DNA of 60,193 bases from a virus. Below are positions 2,982 to 52,569 of this stretch, in pieces. Within the stretch, counting starts at the first letter, position 1, and each line of letters opens with the position of its first letter. The translations under genes were made by a program, and so were the position numbers. The DNA lies in IMG/VR virus record IMGVR_UViG_3300012201_000003, positions 1 to 60,193 of that record; one strand, given 5' to 3'. The notes under the pieces were generated by a model. The model did not search any database and had not been told where the DNA came from. It saw only the letters and a program-made list of their open reading frames with translations.

Positions 2982-3355
2982 GATGCCAGGCCCCGGGCCA
3001 GGGAACGACCCCCCCGGCTTATCCCATGCCGGAGGGGCCTGCGCGGTTGCACCGGTCCTCGTTTAGCAGACGGGTGGTGCGTTCCCGATGCGGTCGCCGC
3101 GTGCGGTCGCGGCCAGGTTCAACAAGTGACCGACGCTCTGCCACTGAGCTATGGCCCCACGTGGAGGGGCCAACGGGGGTCGAACCCGTGACTTCCGGCA
3201 CTACTGGCGCGGTTGCGCGAGACAACAGCAGCTCTGACGATGATCTTAGAGCGATACGGTGACCGGGACGAGAAGGCGCGCGGGGCCCTTGCGGGCAGCA
3301 TCACCGGCTGGCGACGCGGACGAGGATCTTGCGCTCGCCAGCAAGCCTAGCAGCC
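2982..3355 (-). other. Noncoding stretch around the permuted tRNA-like locus
   Basis: Between the stop of the gene at 3356 and the start at 2981 there are 374 bases with no convincing gene. Apart from the tRNA-like halves, the flanks are GC-rich with several short inverted repeats, for example GCTCT...AGAGC at about 3231-3252. They could hold leader and trailer elements for processing. I did not find a convincing group I intron core by eye. Confidence 0.5.
3112..3208 (-). tRNA. Circularly permuted tRNA-like locus (3' half before 5' half)
   Basis: Read on the minus strand, a 3' half comes first: a stem strand GCCGG (3199-3195), AAGTC, then the T arm ACGGG-TTCGACC-CCCGT (3189-3173), acceptor TGGCCCC, T and CCA (3172-3162). 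Only three bases (CGT) separate it from a 5' half: GGGGCCA (3158-3152), TA, the D arm GCTC-AGTGGCA-GAGC, G, and TCGGT (3133-3129). The acceptor strands pair perfectly over 7 bp, and the TCGGT/GCCGG anticodon stem makes 5 pairs, two of them G-U. Flanks GCCAG (3208-3204) and CTGGC (3116-3112) can also pair. No conventional tRNA folds in normal order. The anticodon cannot be assigned, because no join gives a U at position 33. Confidence 0.6.
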
Positions 3356-4093
3356 CTAGCTGTGCAGCCCGTCGAACAGGTAGCGAGCCACCGGGTCGGC
3401 CACCATCGTCTCTACCCCGGCCGAGTTCGCTTCCTCCCGGGCCGACCGGCACGCGTCGACGAGCCGCTGAATGCGGTCCGCCAGGGCCTGCACCCGGTCG
3501 AACGTGAACGCGCCCGAGAGCTGCGTCTGCGTCCAGTCGCCGACTGGCACCTCCCGCTCGTACGTCTTGACCTGGGCGGGGTGCTCCGGCGTCGCCGGGT
3601 ACAGCACGACCGGCTCCGGGACGCGGTCGTTGCGGGCCCGCTTCGACGGCATCCCCGCGTACAGGCCCCGCCGGTCCGTCAGCCCCCACCGTTCCTTCGG
3701 GTCCAGGACCGGCATCTTGCGGACGAACACCGCCAGCTCGGCGAGCTGGGCTTCGAGGAACAGCAGGTACGACGTCGGCACGCCGCCCAGCAGGGTGTCC
3801 CCGTCGACCACCAGGTCGGCCACGGCGTCCTGGTTGGCGGTGTCCTTGGTCAGCACCAGGCTGAACATGCGGGCCAGCACCTCGGCGAGCCGGTCCATGA
3901 CCTCCTCGCCGATGACCTGCACCAGCTTGTTCTCATCCGGGTACTGCTCGCCGTCGTCGGCTCGCGGCGCGTAGACCCGGGTCTGCCCGTTGATGGCCGG
4001 GCTGGCGAGCATCTGGGCCGCGCTGTCGAGCGCGGTCTTGGCGTTCTTGCGGGCGCCCTGCTCCAGGGCGATGATCTGGTTCAGCCGTGTCAT
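3356..4093 (-). CDS. Hypothetical phage protein of the RLNQIIALE type
   Basis: The 245-residue protein is mainly helical and charged, starting MTRLNQIIALEQG. The ATG at 4093 is preferred over 4099 because the purine-rich GGGGAAGGAA lies at proper distance from it. I recall similar proteins of unknown function in actinophages, but that is not confirmed here. It is followed by the tRNA-like locus. Confidence 0.7.
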   Translation of the reverse strand: MTRLNQIIALEQGARKNAKTALDSAAQMLASPAINGQTRVYAPRADDGEQYPDENKLVQVIGEEVMDRLAEVLARMFSLVLTKDTANQDAVADLVVDGDTLLGGVPTSYLLFLEAQLAELAVFVRKMPVLDPKERWGLTDRRGLYAGMPSKRARNDRVPEPVVLYPATPEHPAQVKTYEREVPVGDWTQTQLSGAFTFDRVQALADRIQRLVDACRSAREEANSAGVETMVADPVARYLFDGLHS

Positions 4094-28151: not shown

Positions 28152-28609
28152 TGGTCGTCCTCTCCAGTCCAGATACTCCAGCAGAACTCGCCGTCGAGCA
28201 GGATCAGGCCCCGGTCCCACGACAGCACCGGGACGCGGGCCGGGTCGCCGTGCGACGGCACGACCCACCCGGCGGCATCGGCCCGGTTGTGGTGCGCCCA
28301 GCCGTGGCAGCCCGTTGTCCCGGACCCGCAGAGCGCGGCCCGGTTCTCCGGGCCGTCGGAGCCGCCCTGGGAGCGGAGCTGGCGGTGGTGGCACGACCAG
28401 CTCGGCGACCGGGGCTCGCCGAGCGGCCGGCCGCAGCGCAGGCACCGGCCGCTCTCCCGCAGCCACACGCCCTCCCGGACGTCATAGCCCGCAGGGCCGG
28501 TCAGGGCCGGCTGCTGATGGCCAGGCCCGACGTCCCGCCAAAGCAGTTCCACCCCGGCGGCAAGCCGCCCCAGCCGTCCTTCTCGGCCGTCGCCGTCAGT
28601 TGCAGGCAC
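28148..28609 (-). CDS. HNH endonuclease
   Basis: The nuclease core has CLRCGRPL, CHHRQLRSQGGSDG, N-R-A-LC, then GCHGWAHHNRADA: HNH with four zinc Cys. The frame is open from ATG 28609, but that part overlaps the upstream gene; GTG at 28468 would give a compact 106-residue enzyme. Phage HNH enzymes may act in packaging, homing or DNA processing. It lies far from any terminase, so a non-packaging role is more likely. Confidence 0.75.
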   Translation of the reverse strand: MPATDGDGREGRLGRLAAGVELLWRDVGPGHQQPALTGPAGYDVREGVWLRESGRCLRCGRPLGEPRSPSWSCHHRQLRSQGGSDGPENRAALCGSGTTGCHGWAHHNRADAAGWVVPSHGDPARVPVLSWDRGLILLDGEFCWSIWTGEDDQ

Positions 28610-29484
28610 TGCGCGACGAGCACGTTCGGGTTCGCCGACAGGATCTTGGTCAGCTTGCCGTACGCCGCCGCCAGCCGCTCGTTCGTGGTGACCTCCTGCG
28701 CGGCGATCGCCGTGTTGCCGTACTGCTGCTGGACGGAGTTCAGCCGCGCCTGGGTGGTGCGGTCGTAGCGCAGCAGCGGCATCAGGATCGACACGATCTG
28801 GATCCGGGAGCCGATGTCGGCGTTCATCGCCTTGAGCACCCTCGGCTGGAACGTGGTGAACTGGCTGTTTCCGACCGTGGTGGACACGCTGACGTCCTGG
28901 ATCGGGTTGTAGTCGCCGAGCACCTGGTTCGCGACCTGCCGCAGCTCGCGGACCACCACCGCGTTCTCGATCACCGGCATCAGGTCGCCCTGGTTGGCGT
29001 AGTCGGAGAACAGGCTGTCAGCGGCCTGGTCCTCGACCTTCCACTGGATCGTCACGTCCAGGCACGCGGTCTGCTGGCCGCCGATCCGCACCTCCAGGCA
29101 CGGCGCGGTCGACGACCCGGTGTCGCCCTTCGGCGGCGTCGTCACGCCCACGAGGTCGCCCTTCTGGCAGAACTGGCCCTGGCAGCCCTCGAACGTCGTG
29201 GTCTGGATTGTCTCGTCGAGGACCCGCAGGTGCTTCCACGGCGTCCACGTCTCGTGCAGCCCTGGCCCGTAGGGCGCGCCGACGACCTTCCCGAAGCTGA
29301 CCGGCACGCCGATCGACTTGGTGGGCACCGACTTGAACCCGGCGACCACAAACAGCAGGAACGCCAGCAGCAACGCCCCGGCGAACGTGGCGCCGCCCGC
29401 CGCGCCGTTGTACTTCCCGCCGGCTGCCACGGCGCCGATGACGCCGCCGATGACGACGAGGATCGCCAGTACGAACCAGAACAT
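28501..29484 (-). CDS. SPFH/Band 7 membrane protein
   Basis: This 327-residue protein has two membrane segments at about 2-22 and 30-50, followed by the SPFH pattern: VPTKSIGVPVSFGKV, LDVTIQWKV and VVVRELRQVANQV. Paired Cys in the middle are unusual. Family members are stomatin/prohibitin-like membrane scaffolds, and copies occur in actinophages. A role in protecting or reorganising the host membrane is inferred. Confidence 0.8.
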   Translation of the reverse strand: MFWFVLAILVVIGGVIGAVAAGGKYNGAAGGATFAGALLLAFLLFVVAGFKSVPTKSIGVPVSFGKVVGAPYGPGLHETWTPWKHLRVLDETIQTTTFEGCQGQFCQKGDLVGVTTPPKGDTGSSTAPCLEVRIGGQQTACLDVTIQWKVEDQAADSLFSDYANQGDLMPVIENAVVVRELRQVANQVLGDYNPIQDVSVSTTVGNSQFTTFQPRVLKAMNADIGSRIQIVSILMPLLRYDRTTQARLNSVQQQYGNTAIAAQEVTTNERLAAAYGKLTKILSANPNVLVAQCLQLTATAEKDGWGGLPPGWNCFGGTSGLAISSRP

Positions 29485-29765: not shown

Positions 29766-30044
29766 TCACATGCGGTCGGACTCGCCTTCGGCGATCGCGT
29801 CCATGGCCTGCGGGTCCGACATGACCGTCTCCCGCCACTCCGGCGACGCGAGCGTCATGGCCTCGGTTTCGGTCCACGTCCCCTCGACCACCACCGCATC
29901 CGGGGTCTGGCAGAAGCACATCCGCTTGATCACCGAGACAGGCAGAGGGCGGGACAGCGCGAATACCTGCGCCGGGTGATTCTCCACGCCGACGATCATC
30001 CACAGGTGCTCATGCGGGCGCGGGTGCCGGCGCCCGCGCCACAT
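29766..30044 (-). CDS. Hypothetical protein
   Basis: The product has 92 residues from ATG at 30044, which is fused to the Bet gene's stop (TGATG). It is soluble with a His-rich start. No family recognised. Confidence 0.55.
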   Translation of the reverse strand: MWRGRRHPRPHEHLWMIVGVENHPAQVFALSRPLPVSVIKRMCFCQTPDAVVVEGTWTETEAMTLASPEWRETVMSDPQAMDAIAEGESDRM

Positions 30045-32209
30045 CACAGCCCCCTCCCCGGCTCGCCCTGGCGCCCGGCCGGGCCGGCCGGCTCCTGCCA
30101 GTCCGGGGCGCCCTCAGCGTCCCACCCGCCGGCCCGCGCCAGCCGGGTCAGCGCCTCCCGCAACGCCGGCACGTCGTCGCCCCGGTCATCGACCAGCACC
30201 CGCAGCTTGCTGACCACCAGCGCAACCTCGTCGTCGGACAGCTCAGCCGAGCTGGACAGCTTCAGCGGCCCGGCGTCGGGGTTCTCGGCGGCGAGGATCG
30301 CCAGGATGCCGAGCCGCACCGGCCGGTTCTTGTCGCCCCCGAGGCCGAGATCGCGGAACAGGGCGTGCATGTGCCGCCGGTCCCGGGCGTCGGCCTGCTC
30401 GGCGTCCGCGCGGGCCTGCTGCTCGGCGGCCTGCTCGGCGGCCAGCCGGTCCGTCTCGGCGGTGTCCGCGTCGACGTCAGGCCCGGCGTGGCGGGGCGGG
30501 GACAGCCGCTGCGACCGCGCCGGCTGCGGCGGGCGTTCCGCCTGGGCCAGCGCCAGCGGCTGGTGCCCCATCTCCTCCTCGATGTACAGGCCGCCCAGGT
30601 CCGCCGGGAACGCCCGCCGAGACCCGAACGCCTCGCAGCACTGGCCCGAAATCATGGCCATACCGTTGCGGCGGACAATGATCAGGTGGCTGGGCACGGT
30701 CACGCACCACACCCATCCGTCGGCGTTCGGCTCTACACCGATCCCCGGCCGATCCCGCCAGGGCCTCGCGACCGGAGCAGTCGGCCGGGTCGCGGAAATA
30801 GTAATCACCCAGTGTGGCCGCGACGAAAGGTCGTCGCAGTCCCTCTTGCGGGGGACACTGACCGTGTAACCGGCGGCAGCGGCCAGCAGCTCGATTGCCC
30901 CCACATGCTCCTGGTTGCTGGTACCGAGCCGGCACGTCGGGCCCTGCCGAGTGCCGTCAAAGTCCGCCCACGCGTCAAGCACCGCACGGGCCTGCTCCTG
31001 CGACATGGCCACGACCGAGTCCGGGCTCACCCTCTTACCCGGGCTTACGCCCGTACCGGACAGCAGGTCCAGATCGTAAACGAATGTCACCTTGTCGCTG
31101 CGGGTACGCACCGGGCGCGGGCCACTGGACACCCGCCCGGCGTCCTTCTTAACCGTGGTCCGGCAGTGCAGCCCGAGAGCATTCAGCGCGGCGATCTTCC
31201 GGGGCCGGGACACGCTGAGCAGTGCCCGTCGGCCCTGCGCGTACCCGTCGGCCAGGAAGTACCCGGCGAGCCGCAGTCGATCCTGTGTGACCGGCAGTCC
31301 CATGCTCCTGCCCGGAGCCGTCAACGGTATCCGCCACCGGGGCCGGTGTGTGGCGGTGTTCAGCATCGTTTCCGCCTCCACCTTCCCTGCGGTAGTCATC
31401 ATGTCGTGGTTGGGTGTAACGCTGAAGTCCAGTCGTTCACCGTGGTAGCCGATCATCGGCCCGTCGTAGCGCTGCGCGAACGGAATAGCGCGGACTAGCT
31501 CGATACCGTGCTCAGTGACCTGCGCGATGCGTGCCGACCCGACGTCCGCGAACAACCGGAACCCCGCGTCGGTCAGAACCTCCGTATCGGACATAAAACA
31601 CTTTTCGATCATGTGGTCGGCCTGCACCGCCCACTGCGCGGCCGGGTCGCCGTTCCGCTTCGTCGCGATGTAGGCGTTCGTTCTCAGCACAGCCGGGAAC
31701 CGGTAGCCGTTCTTCAGCAGCACCACCTTGCACGCCGTCGGCACCCGGTCATCCCACAGCCACTCGGTGTACGGCCTGCCGTCCTCGTCGTACCAGACTG
31801 TCTCCTCGAACTCCACGCTCACCCGGTCACGGCGGGCCGCCCGCTCACGCTGCACCCGGAACCCGTCGATGCCGACCTGGATCGTCTGCCGCCACTCGTA
31901 CGCCTTGATGTCGTCGTTCCAGGTCTGCCGGGGGATCAGGTAAATCTGGCGGATGAACGGGTCCAGGCCGGTCTTGCGGCAGTAGTGGAAGAACACCGCC
32001 AGGTCACCCTCCGACGGCGCCTTCGGCCCCGCCGTCCGCATGCCCAGCGACCGCAGCGCCGAAAGCTGGCTGCCGGTCCAGAACGGCTGGTCGTCGACGA
32101 TCGCCAGGCGGGCGTCCTTGCTGGGGACCGACGTCCCCGGGGTGGCTGCCTGCTGTTCGGCTTCGCGGTCGGCGACCGCCTGCCGGGTTGTGGCCGGCTG
32201 ATTACTCAT
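30044..32209 (-). CDS. bet: Bet/RecT-type single-strand annealing protein interrupted by an intein
   Basis: This is a 721-residue precursor. Extein N (1-203) has DLAVFFHYCRKTGLDPF, RQIYLIPRQ and TIQVGIDGFR, the lambda Bet/RecT signature. Extein C resumes with CCEAFGSRRAFPADLGGLYI, so the spliced product reads through MIEK-CCEAF and is about 401 residues. It anneals single strands in phage recombination together with the YqaJ exonuclease 230 bases upstream on the same transcript. The acidic, Gln/Ala-rich C-terminus may recruit partners. The start lies after CCTGGAGGC, a degenerate start-associated motif. Confidence 0.88.
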   Translation of the reverse strand: MSNQPATTRQAVADREAEQQAATPGTSVPSKDARLAIVDDQPFWTGSQLSALRSLGMRTAGPKAPSEGDLAVFFHYCRKTGLDPFIRQIYLIPRQTWNDDIKAYEWRQTIQVGIDGFRVQRERAARRDRVSVEFEETVWYDEDGRPYTEWLWDDRVPTACKVVLLKNGYRFPAVLRTNAYIATKRNGDPAAQWAVQADHMIEKCFMSDTEVLTDAGFRLFADVGSARIAQVTEHGIELVRAIPFAQRYDGPMIGYHGERLDFSVTPNHDMMTTAGKVEAETMLNTATHRPRWRIPLTAPGRSMGLPVTQDRLRLAGYFLADGYAQGRRALLSVSRPRKIAALNALGLHCRTTVKKDAGRVSSGPRPVRTRSDKVTFVYDLDLLSGTGVSPGKRVSPDSVVAMSQEQARAVLDAWADFDGTRQGPTCRLGTSNQEHVGAIELLAAAAGYTVSVPRKRDCDDLSSRPHWVITISATRPTAPVARPWRDRPGIGVEPNADGWVWCVTVPSHLIIVRRNGMAMISGQCCEAFGSRRAFPADLGGLYIEEEMGHQPLALAQAERPPQPARSQRLSPPRHAGPDVDADTAETDRLAAEQAAEQQARADAEQADARDRRHMHALFRDLGLGGDKNRPVRLGILAILAAENPDAGPLKLSSSAELSDDEVALVVSKLRVLVDDRGDDVPALREALTRLARAGGWDAEGAPDWQEPAGPAGRQGEPGRGL
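30641..31600 (-). other. Intein with LAGLIDADG-type endonuclease, inserted in Bet
   Basis: Precursor residues 204-523 (320 residues). Block A begins CFMSDTEVLTDAGF; block B is FSVTPNHDMM. Endonuclease blocks LAGYFLADGYAQ and VLDAWADFDG follow, and block F is WCVTVPSHLIIVRRNG. It ends GMAMISGQ before extein Cys. The last residue is Gln instead of Asn, and the penultimate is Gly rather than His, a rare but known type of end. The insertion sits in the conserved MIEK-C site. Its lower GC content stands out from the flanks. Confidence 0.88.
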
Positions 32210-32439
32210 GATGGTGCCTCCAGGGATGCGACCGCCGCGCTGGTGCGCAGCGGGTACAGGTTCTCCACGGTGCCACGCAGTACTGACACCTGGTGGCCGG
32301 TCAGCTTCAGGTGCGCCAGCGCATCATCGCGCAGCGACCGCGACAGGGGGCTGCGGTAGCCGAGCGGCTGGCCCGCCGGGCAGGTGAAGCACGTCCACGA
32401 CTGCACGTATAGCGGAACCCCGTCGGTGGTGTACTCCAT
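32206..32439 (-). CDS. Small C2H2-like zinc-finger protein
   Basis: The product has 77 residues. CFTCPAGQ and, 26 residues later, HLKLTGHQV give a C-x2-C...H-x4-H pattern. ATG at 32439 is fused to the exonuclease stop (TGATG). Its place between the exonuclease and Bet suggests a role in recombination. Confidence 0.6.
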   Translation of the reverse strand: MEYTTDGVPLYVQSWTCFTCPAGQPLGYRSPLSRSLRDDALAHLKLTGHQVSVLRGTVENLYPLRTSAAVASLEAPS

Positions 32440-33455
32440 CAGTCCCACGCCCCCCTCGACGGGACAATCTTGTCGATCTGCTTGCCGGCCTTCGTGTACC
32501 GGGCGGCGATCTCCGGCTGCTCCTCGCGCAGCCGACCCGCGTCGATCCGTTTCGGCGCGGACACCGACCGGACCGCGAGGGACACGCCGTCCTTGTCGAC
32601 CGCCCGCCGGCCCGTGCCGAGCCGTTCCCGCAGCAGGTTCGCCGCCAGGCCCAGCCGCTCCTCAGCCCGGTCAGCGCCGGCGACAGCGCGCCGATACCGG
32701 CGGGCCAGGCCCCACGGCACCTCCACGTTCCGGTCGTCGACCTGGCCGCCGAACCGGCGGGTGATCGCCTCGGCGGTGCCGGCCGACCAGTCGATGTCCG
32801 GCTCGTTCCGCGCCTCGACCCGGGCGCGGAACGAGTCCAGCTCGCCGAGGATCCAGTCGATGTCGTCCTGCGCGTCGGCGTCGCGGGTCAGCAGGTACAC
32901 GGCGACCTCGCGGGTGTCGTGGAACATGGTCGGCACCCACACCCGCTCCGCGCCCGCTACGTGCAACTCGATCAGGCACTGCGGCCGGTAGTAACGCGGG
33001 ATATGCGCCGTGCCGGGCGGCCCCCAGTGCAGCGGGTTCCGCCACCCTGCCGTCTTGCACTGCACCACCTGCGGCGGCCACGCCACCTCGGCCGGGCTGA
33101 CCGCCGAGTGCTCGAAGGCCAGCCGGTCGAACGTGCAGCCGAGCCACGGCCGGTCGGCGTCGGCGTACAGGCCGCCCTCAGTCACCCACAGCTCCGGGTG
33201 GCGGCGGGCGAACCGCTGCGCCACCCACCCCTCCATGTACCGGCCCAGCTCCAGGATCTCGTCGTCGTCGTCGCCGGGCGGCTCCGGGTCGGTTTTCTCC
33301 CGGTACACGCTGAACGCCGACTGTTTCCAGCTCTTGGGGGCCAGGCCCAGGATGGCGGGCACGTCCGACGCGGTGATCAGGGCGTGGCGGGCTTTCAGCC
33401 AGCCGTCCCGGTCGGCCGCGACCTGGTCCTGCGACATCAGCAACTGGGCGGTCAC
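32439..33455 (-). CDS. YqaJ-type viral recombinase/exonuclease
   Basis: The 338-residue protein shows the YqaJ pattern in order: LITASDVPAILGLAPK, then ILELGRYMEGWVAQRF with the metal-binding Glu, GCTFDRL with the catalytic Asp, and VVQCKTA with the catalytic Lys after the core strand. These enzymes resect double-stranded ends to give single strands for the Bet partner, encoded just downstream. Together they form a complete lambda Red-like pair. Confidence 0.85.
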   Translation of the reverse strand: MTAQLLMSQDQVAADRDGWLKARHALITASDVPAILGLAPKSWKQSAFSVYREKTDPEPPGDDDDEILELGRYMEGWVAQRFARRHPELWVTEGGLYADADRPWLGCTFDRLAFEHSAVSPAEVAWPPQVVQCKTAGWRNPLHWGPPGTAHIPRYYRPQCLIELHVAGAERVWVPTMFHDTREVAVYLLTRDADAQDDIDWILGELDSFRARVEARNEPDIDWSAGTAEAITRRFGGQVDDRNVEVPWGLARRYRRAVAGADRAEERLGLAANLLRERLGTGRRAVDKDGVSLAVRSVSAPKRIDAGRLREEQPEIAARYTKAGKQIDKIVPSRGAWD

Positions 33456-47028: not shown

Positions 47029-50000
47029 TCAGGCCAGCCTTTCGAGCTGCCAGCGCGAGAAGTGGGTGAGCTGGCAGGCGGGGGCGCCGTCCGGGGAGTA
47101 CGCCAGCAGCGTCTGGTTCCCGAACGGGTCGACGTGCAGCGGCGGCCCCGACACGTCCGCCGACCCGAGCACCGACACGGCCTGCCCCCGGTCGAACATC
47201 GACCCCATGATGTTGCCGATCTCCGCGGACCCGGCGGGCTCGTCAACCCAGTACGACGTGTACCCGGTGGGGGACTGCACGACGACCGTGGACCCGAGGG
47301 TGTCGAGGAACAGGGCGTCCTGGAACCGGTCAGCGGTGTCGCCGCTGGTGATGGCGACGGTGAAGTAGCCGCCGGTGTTGTCGAGCGGCATCGCGCTCAC
47401 GGGCAGGGTCAGCTCGCCGAGCAGCACCAGCGGCGACTTCAGGTTCGCCGGGGTGATGCTCTGGGACGCGGCGGCGGGGTAGACGGTGCCGCCGGCCTGC
47501 TCGTACTGGCGGACCGTGGCGGTGACGGTGCGGGCGGCGGACGGGTTGTGCCACGAGCTGGCGACCACGTAGACGGTGACGGTGAACGGCCGGTCGGGGT
47601 CGCCGAACCGGGCCGCCGACCCGTCGATGAGCTGGGGCAGCGTGTACTCGGCGGTGCCGTCCGGCGGGTCGTTGGCGCTGAGCGCGCACCACGGCGTGAA
47701 CGTGTCCGGGGCGTCGAACCCGGGCTGGTGCACGACGAGGGTTTTCCAGCCGATGGTCTGGGTGTAGGTGACGGCGACCTTGGCGTCGCCGCCGTACCCG
47801 GCGAGGTCGGGCAGGAGCAGCCGCTGCCCGGCGCCGCCGCCGCCGCCGCCGCCGGGCCGGCCGGGGGACCCGTACTGGGCGACGCCGGTCCCGCCCTGCC
47901 CGCCGCGCCCGGCGTCGCCGCCGCCGCCTGTCCCGCCCGCGCCGCCTGAGGACCCGGCCTGGCCCGCCGACCCGGCCCCGTCCGGGCCGCCGGCGCCGCC
48001 GCCGCCGCCCCCCGCAGTCCCGGATCCGGAACCGCCCGCCCCGCCGGCGTTGGCCGCACCTGAGGTCAGGGTGACCGTGTCGAACCAGTGCGCCTCGCTC
48101 CCGGCGGCGGTGGCCTTGACCCTGGCCCTGGCCCGGCACCACACGGCCCCGGACGGCGGGCTCAGGGTGGCCTGGGTGAGCGCCACGAACGCCGACGTGG
48201 AGTTGTTCAGGTCCGCGCCGTACAGGGTGCCCAGGGAGACGCCGTTGGAGTCCCAGAACTCGGCGCCCAGCGAGCACGCCCGCACCGTCGTGGCCGCCTT
48301 GGCGTACCCGTTCACGACGACGGGCAGCAGCGGGTCGCACGGCTCGCCCTGGCTGGCGTAGTTCGCCGCCAGGCACGACCCGGCCGACATGTCCCCCGAC
48401 GCGGTCGAGGTCAGCTTCAGCGACCCGGTGCCGGCCTGGTGCTGGGTGGCGTCGGCGGTGGCGGTGCCGTTGCCTGTGCCGACCCAGTTCCCGATCCCGC
48501 CGTCGAAGCTGGAGTTCTGGCCGGCGAGCTGCTGGATCGGCGCGTACCCGGTCGCGCCTGCTACTCCCGTGCTCACGTTGTCGGCCATGTTGGCGCCGCC
48601 GTGGCCGCGGACGGTCACCCCGAGGTCGGTGGTGAACTTCGCGTCGCCGGGGGTGCCGGCGGGGCCCTGCCCGCCGTGCGGCACCACGATGGTCTGGAGC
48701 GCGCCCGCGGTCATGGGCAGGCCCGGCTCGGCGGCGTACTCCCCGCCGGGGCCGCCGGCCCGGCCGGCGCCGGACGTGTCAGTCGAGCCCTTGCCGGCCG
48801 GGCCGGTGCACTCGGTGCGCTGCGCCGACACCAGCCCGCCCGGCGCCCGCCAGTAGAACGTGCCCGGCGTCGTCCACTTCCGGGTCACCGTCTGCACGCT
48901 GCCGGGCGGCTGGGTGAACTGCAAAGAGACCGCCGACCGCGCCGACCCGGCGATGCCGGCCAGGCTGACCAGGTTCCCCGACGCCGGCTGCACCTGCTGC
49001 GCGGAGGCGTAGGGCACGGCGCGGAACGTGTCGAGGTACACGTCGGTGTACTGCAGGTCCCCGGCCTGCCGGTTGCTGATCTTGATCGTGTAGCCGGTGA
49101 TCGCGGCGAGGTTCAGGCTGCTGCCGGACGGGATCGGGACGTGGATGCGCTGGAACGCCGGGTCCGACGCGTTGCCCGACGTGCGGACCTTCCGGGTCAC
49201 GTGCGTCGTCGCCGAGTGGGTGCCGTCCGAGAGCGTGAACGCGAACTGCACCGGGCCGCGCTGCCCCTGACCCCACCACGGGAAGAACAGCGACGCCCCG
49301 AACCCGGCGATGACGGACAGGCCGTTCAGCCCGGCCAGGTTCAGCGGGCCCATCCCGGACCGGGTGTACGAGGCGACGAGGCCGGTGCCGGACCCGGCCG
49401 GGTCGTAGTGCGCGGAGAACGGCCCCGGGCCGATCAGCGCCTGCGACCACCGGGTGCCTGACACCGTGGAGAAGTCGTCGATGAGGACCGGGCTGGCCGG
49501 GGGGGTGCGGCCGGACAGCGGGACGGGGAAGTCGACGGTGACGGGCTGGTCGGACCGGCCGTACGGGTGCGCCTCGAACGACACCAGGACGTTGGAGACG
49601 AAGCTGGCTTCCTTGAGCAGGTCGTAGTCGACGACGGTGGCCTGCGCGCTGTAGCAGTCGAGCACGAACGGCAGCCCGCCCGCCCGGGTCCAGGTGACGG
49701 TGAAGGTGCGTGCGGAGACGGCGCGGATGAGGACTTCGCGGGCGGCGGCCAGCGTGGCCCGGTCCGGCGCGGTGATCTTGACCGGGAGGGAAGGCTGCCG
49801 GTTGGCGGCGTGAGGCTGCCCCGCCGGCCGCTCCCCGTCGAGCATCGACGCGACCATGTTCGCGGTCGGCTGCGGGGCGGACAGGTCGAACCCGGGCACC
49901 AGCAGGAACACCGCGCCGGCGCACGCCGGGATCGTGGAGGCGACGCCGCCGGCGAGCAGCTCGATGTCTGGGGTGAGGAGAAGGCTGTCGCCGGAGGAGA

Positions 50001-52569
50001 CGACCAGCAGGCCGAGGACCGCCGCGGCGGTGGCTGCCAGCGAGTCGGTGACGGTGACGCCGACGCTGAACGTGCCCGCCTGGACAGGGGTGCCCGAGAT
50101 GACCCCGGCGGAGGACAGGGTCAGCCCGGCAGGCAGGCTCCCGGATGTCAGCGACCACGTGTAGGCCGGGGTGCCCCCCGCGGCGGCCAGGGTCGCCGTG
50201 TAGGCGGTTCCGGTGGTTCCGCCGGGCAGGGTCGTGGTGGTTACCGTCAGCGACGTGACCGTGATGGACAGGGCGCGGGTGGCGGTGGTGTAGGCGTCGG
50301 CGGCCTGCACCGTGAATGACGAAGTTCCGCCCGTTGTGGGCGTGCCGGTGACCGCGCCGGTGGAGGCGTTGAGGGTAAGCCCGGCCGGGAGGGATCCCGA
50401 GATGGTGCTCCAGGTCAGCGACCCGACGCCGCCCGACGCGGCCACCGCCCCGGAGTACGCCTGGCCGATGACGCCGCCCGGCAGGCTGGCCGTGGCGACC
50501 GCGAGCTTCGCCGCGACGGTGACCGTCAGGGTCACGGTCGAGGTGGCGGCGGTGGCGTCGGTGACCTGGAACGTCACCGACTGCGACCCGGCGGCGGTGG
50601 GCGTGCCCGACAGCACCCCGGCCGAGGAGAACGCCAGGCCCGCGGGGAGCGTCCCGGACGCCTGCGACCAGGTGTAGGGCGTGGTGCCGTTCGCGGCGGC
50701 GAACGTCGCCGAGTAGGCGGACCCGGCCTCGGCGGCGGGCAGCGAGCTGGTCGTGACCGACACGGCGGTGACCGCGGCGATCGTGACCGAGTACGCCTGG
50801 GTGTCGGTGTGGCTGGCGGTGTCGGCGACCTGGACGGTGAAGTTGTACACCCCGGCCACGGTCGGCGTGCCGGTGATCACCCCCGCCGAGGACAGCGACA
50901 GCCCGGTCGGCAGCGTGCCGCTCGCCAGCGACCAGGTGTACGCCGGGGTGCCCCCGGCAGCGGCCAGGGTCGTTGACGGGTAGGCGGTGCCTGAGGTGCC
51001 GTTCGGCACGGTCGCGGTGGTGATGTTCAGCGCCGTCGTGCCCGAGGTGCCGTTCAGCGCGTCGAACCACTGGTCGAACAGGGCGTTCCGGTACTCGGTG
51101 ACCCCGTTCGGCGCCACCGACCCGTCCGGGACGGTGATCGCCGTCTCCTGCGTCAGCACCGAGTTGGAGTTGAACACCATGATGTCGGCGTTGGGCTTGC
51201 CCGCGGTCAGCCGCGCGGTGAAGAACGTCTTGACGTACCCGAAGTAGGCGGTGGCCTGCGCCTGCGTCTGCCCCGACGCCGGGTCCGTGCTGGAGTTGGC
51301 CTCCCACAGGCCGAACGGCTTCGGCGGGCTGGCGGCGTCCGCGATCGAGGCGGCGAGGTCGAGGCGTTCCCCGCCGTTGTACTCGCTGCAGTAGAAGTCG
51401 GTCGCGACCCGGTCCACCCACGCGTCGCCGGGGTAGTAGGCGTTCTCGCCGTGGTGGTTCACCGAGTAGATCGACGTGTCGAACGTCATCGGGAAGTACT
51501 GGCGGATCGTGGTCGCGTAGAACTGCCACCCGGCGACGAACAGCGACTGGGTGAGCCCGTCGGAGACGTGACCGGGCAGGCCGCTGCCGTAGGGCTCCTG
51601 CCACAGGCTGACCTCGGCGTTCAGGCCCGCGGTCTTCATCGCCGACAGGAACGTGTCCAGCGCGGCCAGGTCGGCGCTGGTCGGCGGGTTGAACGCCGGG
51701 CGCAGCGACATGCACACCTTGCGGCCCGCCGCGATGTCAGCCGCCAGGTCGGTGGGGACGGGGCTGCCGGCCGGGATCTGCTCCGTCGTGTAGTACTGGC
51801 GGCGGACCGTCAGCGTCCGCCCTGAGTCAGCCTGCCAGGTGTTGATGGCCTGCGCCTGCGTGGTCCCGGCCGGGAACGGCGACGACGGGACGTACGCGCC
51901 GACCAGCCCTGGCGTGCCCGTCGCCGGCGGGGCAGGGGAGAACGTGGCGACGACGCCGGCCCAGCCGTGCGCGTTGTCCGACGCCGTGTTCGACTTGCCT
52001 GTGACCGACACCGGGCCGCCGAGCGCGACCGACAGGTCGTAGCCGCCGTACAGGTGGTTGCCCGCCGACGCGGTGTCGGACCGGCCCAGGGTGAACCCGG
52101 CCGGGTCCGTCCACGTGACGGCGGCGGCAGTGGTGAAGTGCTCGTGGAAGCAGCACACCCAGAGGTCACCGGAGGCGGAGTTCGTGCCGCCGGCCACCGT
52201 GACCTGGGCGACCGTGCCGCCCGGCCCTGTCCCGTGAGAGTTCAGCACCCACGTCGCGTTGGCGACGTCGGTGTGGAACTCCTGCAGGTAGCCCTTGATG
52301 TTCGGCGTCCCGGAGGCCACCGAGCACAGGACCCCGGTGATGCCGCCCGGGTTGTTCGGGTAGTACCAGATCTCGGCGTGGGAGATGCCGCTGTTGCTCA
52401 GCCCGTCGGCCCTCTGCCAGCCGGCAGGCAGCGTCCACGCGTTGCCGCCGCCCTGGATCAGCCAGCAGACCAGCAGGTTCCCCGCCGTCGACGCGACACC
52501 CAGGGTGGGCGTGATCGATATCGCCGAGCCCGTCGCCTCAGGCGATATCTGCACCGACGTCGTGGTCAC
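47029..52569 (-). CDS. Giant Dit-like tail protein with glycosidase-like domain and PIG repeats
   Basis: The 1846-residue protein begins with a beta-sandwich (1-215). Residues about 215-505 look like a TIM-barrel glycosidase: AEVSLWQEPYG (Glu about 325), SIYSVNHHGENA, DFYCSEYNGG, FGLWEANSS (Glu about 424). Four putative Ig repeats of the He_PIG type (about 515-855) follow, each with PAYTWSLASGTLP-like and GxITGTP-like cores. Then comes a Dit-like region (VKITAPDRATLAAAREVLIR, FEAHPYGRSDQ), a carbohydrate-binding-like part, a Gly-rich collagen-like stretch (DNA about 47830-48050) and a final sandwich. It probably binds and trims the host surface glycans. Confidence 0.8.
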   Translation of the reverse strand: MTTTSVQISPEATGSAISITPTLGVASTAGNLLVCWLIQGGGNAWTLPAGWQRADGLSNSGISHAEIWYYPNNPGGITGVLCSVASGTPNIKGYLQEFHTDVANATWVLNSHGTGPGGTVAQVTVAGGTNSASGDLWVCCFHEHFTTAAAVTWTDPAGFTLGRSDTASAGNHLYGGYDLSVALGGPVSVTGKSNTASDNAHGWAGVVATFSPAPPATGTPGLVGAYVPSSPFPAGTTQAQAINTWQADSGRTLTVRRQYYTTEQIPAGSPVPTDLAADIAAGRKVCMSLRPAFNPPTSADLAALDTFLSAMKTAGLNAEVSLWQEPYGSGLPGHVSDGLTQSLFVAGWQFYATTIRQYFPMTFDTSIYSVNHHGENAYYPGDAWVDRVATDFYCSEYNGGERLDLAASIADAASPPKPFGLWEANSSTDPASGQTQAQATAYFGYVKTFFTARLTAGKPNADIMVFNSNSVLTQETAITVPDGSVAPNGVTEYRNALFDQWFDALNGTSGTTALNITTATVPNGTSGTAYPSTTLAAAGGTPAYTWSLASGTLPTGLSLSSAGVITGTPTVAGVYNFTVQVADTASHTDTQAYSVTIAAVTAVSVTTSSLPAAEAGSAYSATFAAANGTTPYTWSQASGTLPAGLAFSSAGVLSGTPTAAGSQSVTFQVTDATAATSTVTLTVTVAAKLAVATASLPGGVIGQAYSGAVAASGGVGSLTWSTISGSLPAGLTLNASTGAVTGTPTTGGTSSFTVQAADAYTTATRALSITVTSLTVTTTTLPGGTTGTAYTATLAAAGGTPAYTWSLTSGSLPAGLTLSSAGVISGTPVQAGTFSVGVTVTDSLAATAAAVLGLLVVSSGDSLLLTPDIELLAGGVASTIPACAGAVFLLVPGFDLSAPQPTANMVASMLDGERPAGQPHAANRQPSLPVKITAPDRATLAAAREVLIRAVSARTFTVTWTRAGGLPFVLDCYSAQATVVDYDLLKEASFVSNVLVSFEAHPYGRSDQPVTVDFPVPLSGRTPPASPVLIDDFSTVSGTRWSQALIGPGPFSAHYDPAGSGTGLVASYTRSGMGPLNLAGLNGLSVIAGFGASLFFPWWGQGQRGPVQFAFTLSDGTHSATTHVTRKVRTSGNASDPAFQRIHVPIPSGSSLNLAAITGYTIKISNRQAGDLQYTDVYLDTFRAVPYASAQQVQPASGNLVSLAGIAGSARSAVSLQFTQPPGSVQTVTRKWTTPGTFYWRAPGGLVSAQRTECTGPAGKGSTDTSGAGRAGGPGGEYAAEPGLPMTAGALQTIVVPHGGQGPAGTPGDAKFTTDLGVTVRGHGGANMADNVSTGVAGATGYAPIQQLAGQNSSFDGGIGNWVGTGNGTATADATQHQAGTGSLKLTSTASGDMSAGSCLAANYASQGEPCDPLLPVVVNGYAKAATTVRACSLGAEFWDSNGVSLGTLYGADLNNSTSAFVALTQATLSPPSGAVWCRARARVKATAAGSEAHWFDTVTLTSGAANAGGAGGSGSGTAGGGGGGAGGPDGAGSAGQAGSSGGAGGTGGGGDAGRGGQGGTGVAQYGSPGRPGGGGGGGAGQRLLLPDLAGYGGDAKVAVTYTQTIGWKTLVVHQPGFDAPDTFTPWCALSANDPPDGTAEYTLPQLIDGSAARFGDPDRPFTVTVYVVASSWHNPSAARTVTATVRQYEQAGGTVYPAAASQSITPANLKSPLVLLGELTLPVSAMPLDNTGGYFTVAITSGDTADRFQDALFLDTLGSTVVVQSPTGYTSYWVDEPAGSAEIGNIMGSMFDRGQAVSVLGSADVSGPPLHVDPFGNQTLLAYSPDGAPACQLTHFSRWQLERLA

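Follow-up and report, generated by a model that had tools for sequence, protein, structure and literature searches.

The interrupted bet gene and its insert

The window analyzed here, a 60,193-nucleotide stretch of viral DNA (IMG/VR record IMGVR_UViG_3300012201_000003), carries on its minus strand an open reading frame (ORF) of 721 aa (30044-32209) that, read in frame, is open throughout and consists of two exteins (residues 1-203 and 524-721) separated by an insert. The 203-aa N-extein (31601..32209, minus strand), which ends in DHMIEK, was matched by the RecT model PF03837 (E 7.9e-10, residues 69-207, above the cut-off) and by bet_lambda TIGR01913 (E 4.5e-14, residues 66-206, below the curated equivalog cut-off). 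Both matches stop at the insert, and the segment aligns to the Redbeta structure 7ujl via a family profile. The C-extein (30044..30640, minus strand) begins with Cys+1 (CCEAFGSRRAFP), and its junction aligns with the KCAEAAAWR of two intein-free homologues, L014 and L015. Both exteins retain the residues invariant in the Bet alignment. On this sequence evidence, the host protein is a phage Bet/RecT single-strand annealing protein, for which annealing activity is predicted. A gene for a YqaJ-like exonuclease (PF09588, E 1.2e-15) adjoins bet on the same strand (32439..33455, minus), as expected for an exonuclease-annealase pair. Elsewhere in the window, minus-strand genes encode a Band 7/SPFH-domain protein (28501-29484; PF01145, E 3.6e-12) and a protein of 1846 residues with repeated Ig-like and PKD domains (47029-52569; PF05345 and others), which may belong to the surface of the virion or to its tail. 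Window positions 20000-44999 had no near match among 50,697 phage records.

The insert (30641..31600, minus strand) spans 320 aa, from Cys1 to Gln320, corresponding to residues 204-523 of the ORF; it reads CFMSDTEVLT...MISGQ|C and is flanked as DHMIEK|C...SGQ|CCEAFGSRRAFP. Removing it would leave a spliced product of 401 residues, the length also given by the initial annotation. Splicing blocks A, B, F, and G were all found: the block A nucleophile Cys1 (31598..31600), the block B motif T-P-N-H with T62 and H65 (31406..31417), a block F with Cys299 at position 4 (30704..30706) and a histidine, His305 (30686..30688), and a block G ending in Gly319-Gln320 (30641..30646, read directly; the Gln320 codon is CAG, 30641-30643), followed by Cys+1. 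The penultimate His is absent, and the terminal Asn is replaced by Gln. Conservation at these positions is high, with His at the H65 position in 212/212 relatives, Thr at the T62 position in 197/212, and Cys at the Cys299 position in 207/212, although part of this sample was gathered with a pattern requiring that cysteine. Cys1 occurs in every same-site Bet intein, these having been gathered with patterns that leave the residue out, and in 123 of the 125 pattern-derived relatives.

Neither Pfam nor NCBIfam intein models matched the insert (LAGLIDADG_3 was sub-threshold, E 0.14), so its identity as an intein rests on tblastn, block alignment, same-site homologues, fold, and homologues with an empty site. 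Full-length tblastn matches, at 22-28% identity, lie within unrelated phage proteins. The best named match was the ThyX intein of Corynebacterium phage P1201 (E 1e-14, ~26% identity), whose host is annotated as intein-containing; other hosts were NAMPT (Tr1, Stab23), a mycobacteriophage nucleotidyltransferase, PhoH, a primase annotated as intein-containing, and the Francis47 phosphoesterase. NrdA and NrdB were matched across the first 68 residues only, and their inteins could be completed via block motifs. All aligned phage inteins share Cys1, the block B His, Cys F:4, and penultimate Gly; the 12 others all end in Asn, whereas the window intein ends in Gln. By these residues (Cys1, TxxH, Cys F:4, penultimate Gly), the window intein is placed in a widespread phage family. 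Two further contigs (L286 and L287) each hold two matches to the intein C-terminal pattern ~1.1 kb apart, possibly two close inteins.

An AlphaFold prediction of the window intein, built on an alignment of 64 relatives, reached a mean pLDDT of 93.6 and comprises a Hint splicing domain and a LAGLIDADG endonuclease. Over its entire length, the model matched whole endonuclease-bearing inteins (TliVMA, Z 19.5; PI-SceI, Z ~18), and it also matched Hint domains alone, as in the AceL NrdHF intein (Z 17.6, 141 residues, 2.4 Å), which the family profile also detects (E 1.2e-11). The silence of the intein models would suit an ordinary Bet domain in place of an intein, but we consider this extremely improbable in view of the Hint and LAGLIDADG fold, of homologues that match over the full length inside ThyX, NAMPT, PhoH, and further unrelated hosts, and of intein-free homologues in which the K and C of the junction are contiguous. 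That the insert is a real, full-length LAGLIDADG intein is confirmed, far past chance. The initial annotation had placed a full intein with a LAGLIDADG endonuclease at exactly these coordinates, and blocks and fold bear it out; its MIEK|C site and Gly-Gln end are read directly from the sequence, and its Bet-type host is borne out by the RecT/Bet profiles.

The Bet insertion site

Besides the window intein, at least 21 distinct inteins occupy the same Bet site, between the Lys and Cys of M-x-x-K|C, and 19 of them end in Gly-Asn. This same-site set, collected with profiles of relatives, comprises L017-L020, L097-L116, and the bacterial contigs L170-L172, and in the tree the Bet-site inteins form one clade (support 99/98). 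The nearest homologues of the window intein are ~46% identical, a distance at which activity may have been lost locally. Searched alone, the insert and the N-extein yielded no close relatives in viral and genome contigs, but the family and Bet-site alignments did detect some. In the 50,697 phage records, full-length tblastn matches to the intein did not exceed 28% identity, so no close Bet-site intein was among them. For one Bet gene of the set (L098), E. coli genomes offered no near match; among plasmids, its intein matched only once, and weakly (25%).

The comparison with intein-free bet homologues suggested by the initial annotation could be made: an uninterrupted K|C junction is seen in LAK|CAEAAAW (L014) and IGK|CAEAAAW (L015), from a Gordonia phage and a Mycobacterium prophage, against IEK|intein|CCEAFGS in the window. 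Lys203 and Cys204, the residues that splicing would join, are invariant in 10 Bet proteins aligned without inteins. Run against the PDB, the profile of these same 10 proteins hit only lambda Redbeta (7ujl, E 5.2e-5), where the splice point maps between residues H153 and K154. The structure of Redbeta with DNA shows the phosphates of the template strand held by R128, W143, H153, K154, and R161 (PMC9512822). The window Bet is of the same protein kind as Redbeta/RecT and differs in that an intein separates the residues corresponding to H153 and K154; because these two residues are phosphate contacts, the intein would interrupt the grip on DNA. With this pair split, we infer that the unspliced Bet precursor should be unable to anneal DNA. 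A search of the open-access literature found nothing on inteins within Bet/RecT, though a report may exist.

The terminal glutamine and the block F histidine

The initial annotation took the penultimate Gly to replace a usual His, a view that does not hold for this family. Gly occupies the position in 177/177 Asn-ending members and in 31/35 Gln-ending ones (part of the sample having been gathered with a pattern requiring Gly); as the family norm, it marks no loss of His in the window lineage. Known inteins of this type work with it, and His there has been found harmful. Splicing of the Bethlehem RDF intein is complete with penultimate Gly and becomes slower when His replaces it (G316H; PMC5050341). 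AceL NrdHF, which has neither C-terminal histidine, splices in minutes, and G145H leads to a loss of its activity (PMC7891396).

Terminal Gln was found in 35 of 212 sampled family inteins, and ~17 to 22 changes are needed to account for it on the trees. At the Bet site, it occurs in three inteins, that of the window, L111 (Arg-Gln), and L115 (Gly-Gln); the tree pairs the last two as sisters and places the window intein apart from them. Sisterhood of the three was considered and rejected, since the L111/L115 clade leaves the window out; a single origin of Gln at this site is thus unlikely. As read from these sequences, the terminal Gln is a recurrent variant in the family, present in at least two same-site lineages. 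The L111 intein (3001-3987, IGRQ|C) has neither penultimate Gly nor terminal Asn. In two cyanobacterial contigs (L174 and L175), near-identical C-termini at one site end in Gln in one and Asn in the other, both with a block F His, forming a natural pair.

Gln ends were already known, as the initial annotation said, but its addition that they often splice by altered chemistry is overstated, because published Gln-ended inteins use the same side-chain cyclization step (PMC4031507, PMC8175363). They cyclize like those with Asn, more slowly in Pol II inteins and better than with Asn in the Chilo iridescent virus (CIV) RNR intein (PMC4031507). In the Gln-ended Pyrococcus abyssi (Pab) Pol II intein, a block F His sits 4.1 Å away from the terminal residue, whose amide it is proposed to activate (PMC8175363). 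Both inteins splice with a Gln end, as the window intein has, but their hosts and lineage differ from those of the window intein; Pab Pol II shares the block F His with it but also has a penultimate His.

The block F His covaries with the terminal Gln. All three Bet-site Gln-enders have it (VPSH, VPTH), whereas the 19 Asn-enders have Gly there; in the sampled family, His occurs in 26/35 Gln-enders versus 41/177 Asn-enders. Pattern scans of viral contigs that left the position unspecified gave His in 20/31 Gln-enders versus 28/112 Asn-enders. When all columns and residues of the merged set were compared (1281 tests), His305 topped the ranking after the terminal residue itself (p 1.4e-8), with the next position at 3.6e-5. 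The association was noticed before it was tested; a held-out test excluding the prompting sequences gave 14/23 versus 21/80 (p 0.005) but contained too few independent pairs. Independent pairs on supported branches fell almost always in the predicted direction, at 5.9:0.1 in the 125-row tree (median sign-test p 0.03) and 3.5:0.1 in the 212-row tree (median sign-test p ~0.25), so that the association is weakened by relatedness and, once corrected for phylogeny, only suggestive. An obligatory block F His, as in the first dozen Gln-enders, all of which had it, was rejected when the unbiased scans returned 8 Gly and 3 Ser among 31, and the claim was cut to enrichment. Nine of the 35 Gln-enders likewise do without it, so His is not strictly required. 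By this covariation, His305 likely helps Gln320, with Asn needing such help less, which fits a His-assisted cyclization of Gln by the ordinary route and not a new chemistry. That the block F His permits the Asn-to-Gln change, with the Gln/His pair acting as a tuned, slower splicing switch, is a further reading that we hold to be rather unlikely.

A decayed intein, in which the change from Asn to Gln320 abolished splicing or left mainly cleavage, so that bet is inactive, would agree with the slowness of Gln-ended Pol II inteins (PMC4031507) and with the spliced junction, which would have Cys where the second C-extein position is nearly invariant Ala. We nevertheless judge decay to be very unlikely: the 721 codons are open with every splicing and endonuclease residue in place, no invariant Bet residue is lost from the exteins, the intein shares His305 with most Gln-enders, and Gln ends in at least two same-site lineages, with the many changes counted across the sampled family, are unlike sporadic decay.

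Splicing route, endonuclease, and significance

Cys1, the putative first nucleophile of a class 1 route, is present in the window intein and conserved in same-site inteins, and its occurrence in every same-site homologue makes the class 1 order the most likely. The near-invariance of Cys F:4 across the family opens another route, resembling class 3, in which Cys299, and not Cys1, attacks first and forms a block F branched intermediate. Class 3 splicing has been proven for AceL NrdHF, whose B:12 residue is Met (PMC7891396), like Met67 of the window, and one member of the same family (L274) has Pro at position 1; together with the cysteine, these suggest that Cys299 could share or take over the first step. 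Such a route would not need Cys1, however, which is kept in all same-site Bet inteins and nearly all pattern-derived relatives; moreover, some relatives have Asp or Ser at F:4, and the WCT signature is missing, with B:12 not Trp and G:5 Ser. We regard the route through Cys299 as distinctly unlikely. Membership of class 3 proper was rejected given the presence of Cys1 and given that, at the positions of the signature (Trp B:12, Cys F:4, Thr G:5), the window has Met67, Cys299, and Ser318, with only the Cys in agreement. The window intein also has Asp66 in place of the block B:11 Arg on which AceL NrdHF partly relies. L274 itself (IMG/VR 3300037751_000355; GAP|YSRDTEILT ... YCVTVKNH...SGN|S), with Pro1 and Cys F:4, looks like an independent class 3-like member.

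Mycobacteriophage RDF (metallophosphoesterase) inteins, such as Bethlehem gp51, resemble the window intein in Cys1, TxxH, Cys F:4, penultimate Gly, LAGLIDADG, and similar length, but differ in host protein, an Asn end, the absence of the block F His, and low identity (22%). The Francis47 gp50 phosphoesterase intein, of the RDF kind by annotation, aligns full-length with it. The AceL NrdHF-1-1 split intein (6zgq), the top fold match of the splicing domain, shares Met B:12, Cys F:4, and penultimate Gly with the window intein but is split, lacks an endonuclease and Cys1, is class 3, and ends in Asn (PMC7891396). The P1201 ThyX intein has the block signature and block F His of the window intein and differs in its ThyX host, Gly-Asn end, and a C-extein starting with Ser.

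We consider it highly likely that the phage Bet/RecT protein of the window is interrupted by a complete LAGLIDADG intein that is probably competent to splice, most likely in the ordinary class 1 order of steps. In such a scheme, Cys1, perhaps aided by Cys F:4, would attack the bond after Lys203, and the N-extein would transfer to Cys+1; Gln320 would then cyclize to a glutarimide with help from the block F His305, which would stand in for the absent penultimate His, and the ligated 401-aa Bet would be released. Family, site, fold, residues, and covariation are read from the sequences, whereas splicing and how fast it runs, the parts played by His305 and Cys299, precursor inactivity, and homing are inferred.

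The endonuclease carries a first LAGLIDADG motif, LAGYFLADG with D118 (31244..31270, minus strand), identified by alignment and a predicted endonuclease helix, and a second, LDAWADFDG with D215 (30953..30979, minus strand), with Asp in 209/212 relatives. As both helices keep their acids, the window endonuclease may be active, and an endonuclease half with both catalytic aspartates would support homing into intein-free bet genes. The initial annotation's proposal that homing exploits the Bet host protein is a guess, with which the two catalytic acids and the neighboring YqaJ-type exonuclease gene agree without bearing on it. In another Bet-site intein (L020, 3001-3957), the acid of the first motif is lost (FLCCG), leaving a probably dead endonuclease with the splicing part kept.

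Because no close relative of the window turned up in the collections, selection was read from the sister prophages L098-L103. Variable codons there were synonymous versus nonsynonymous at 32:3 in the N-extein, 27:11 in the intein, and 16:1 in the C-extein, and all 11 intein replacements fell within residues 90-281, with none in the flanking splicing segments. Such a pattern would be expected if the splicing domain works while the endonuclease it surrounds is less constrained; it is family-level evidence and does not speak directly for the window intein.

With this intein, a recombination annealing protein joins the hosts invaded by phage inteins, and the insertion point separates two mapped DNA contacts. 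Natural Asn and Gln variants at one insertion site, together with a covarying His, make the needs of Gln cyclization testable by point mutants. If the Gln/His pair did act as a switch, Bet-site inteins would delay the appearance of active annealing protein, its DNA-binding helix remaining split until splicing.
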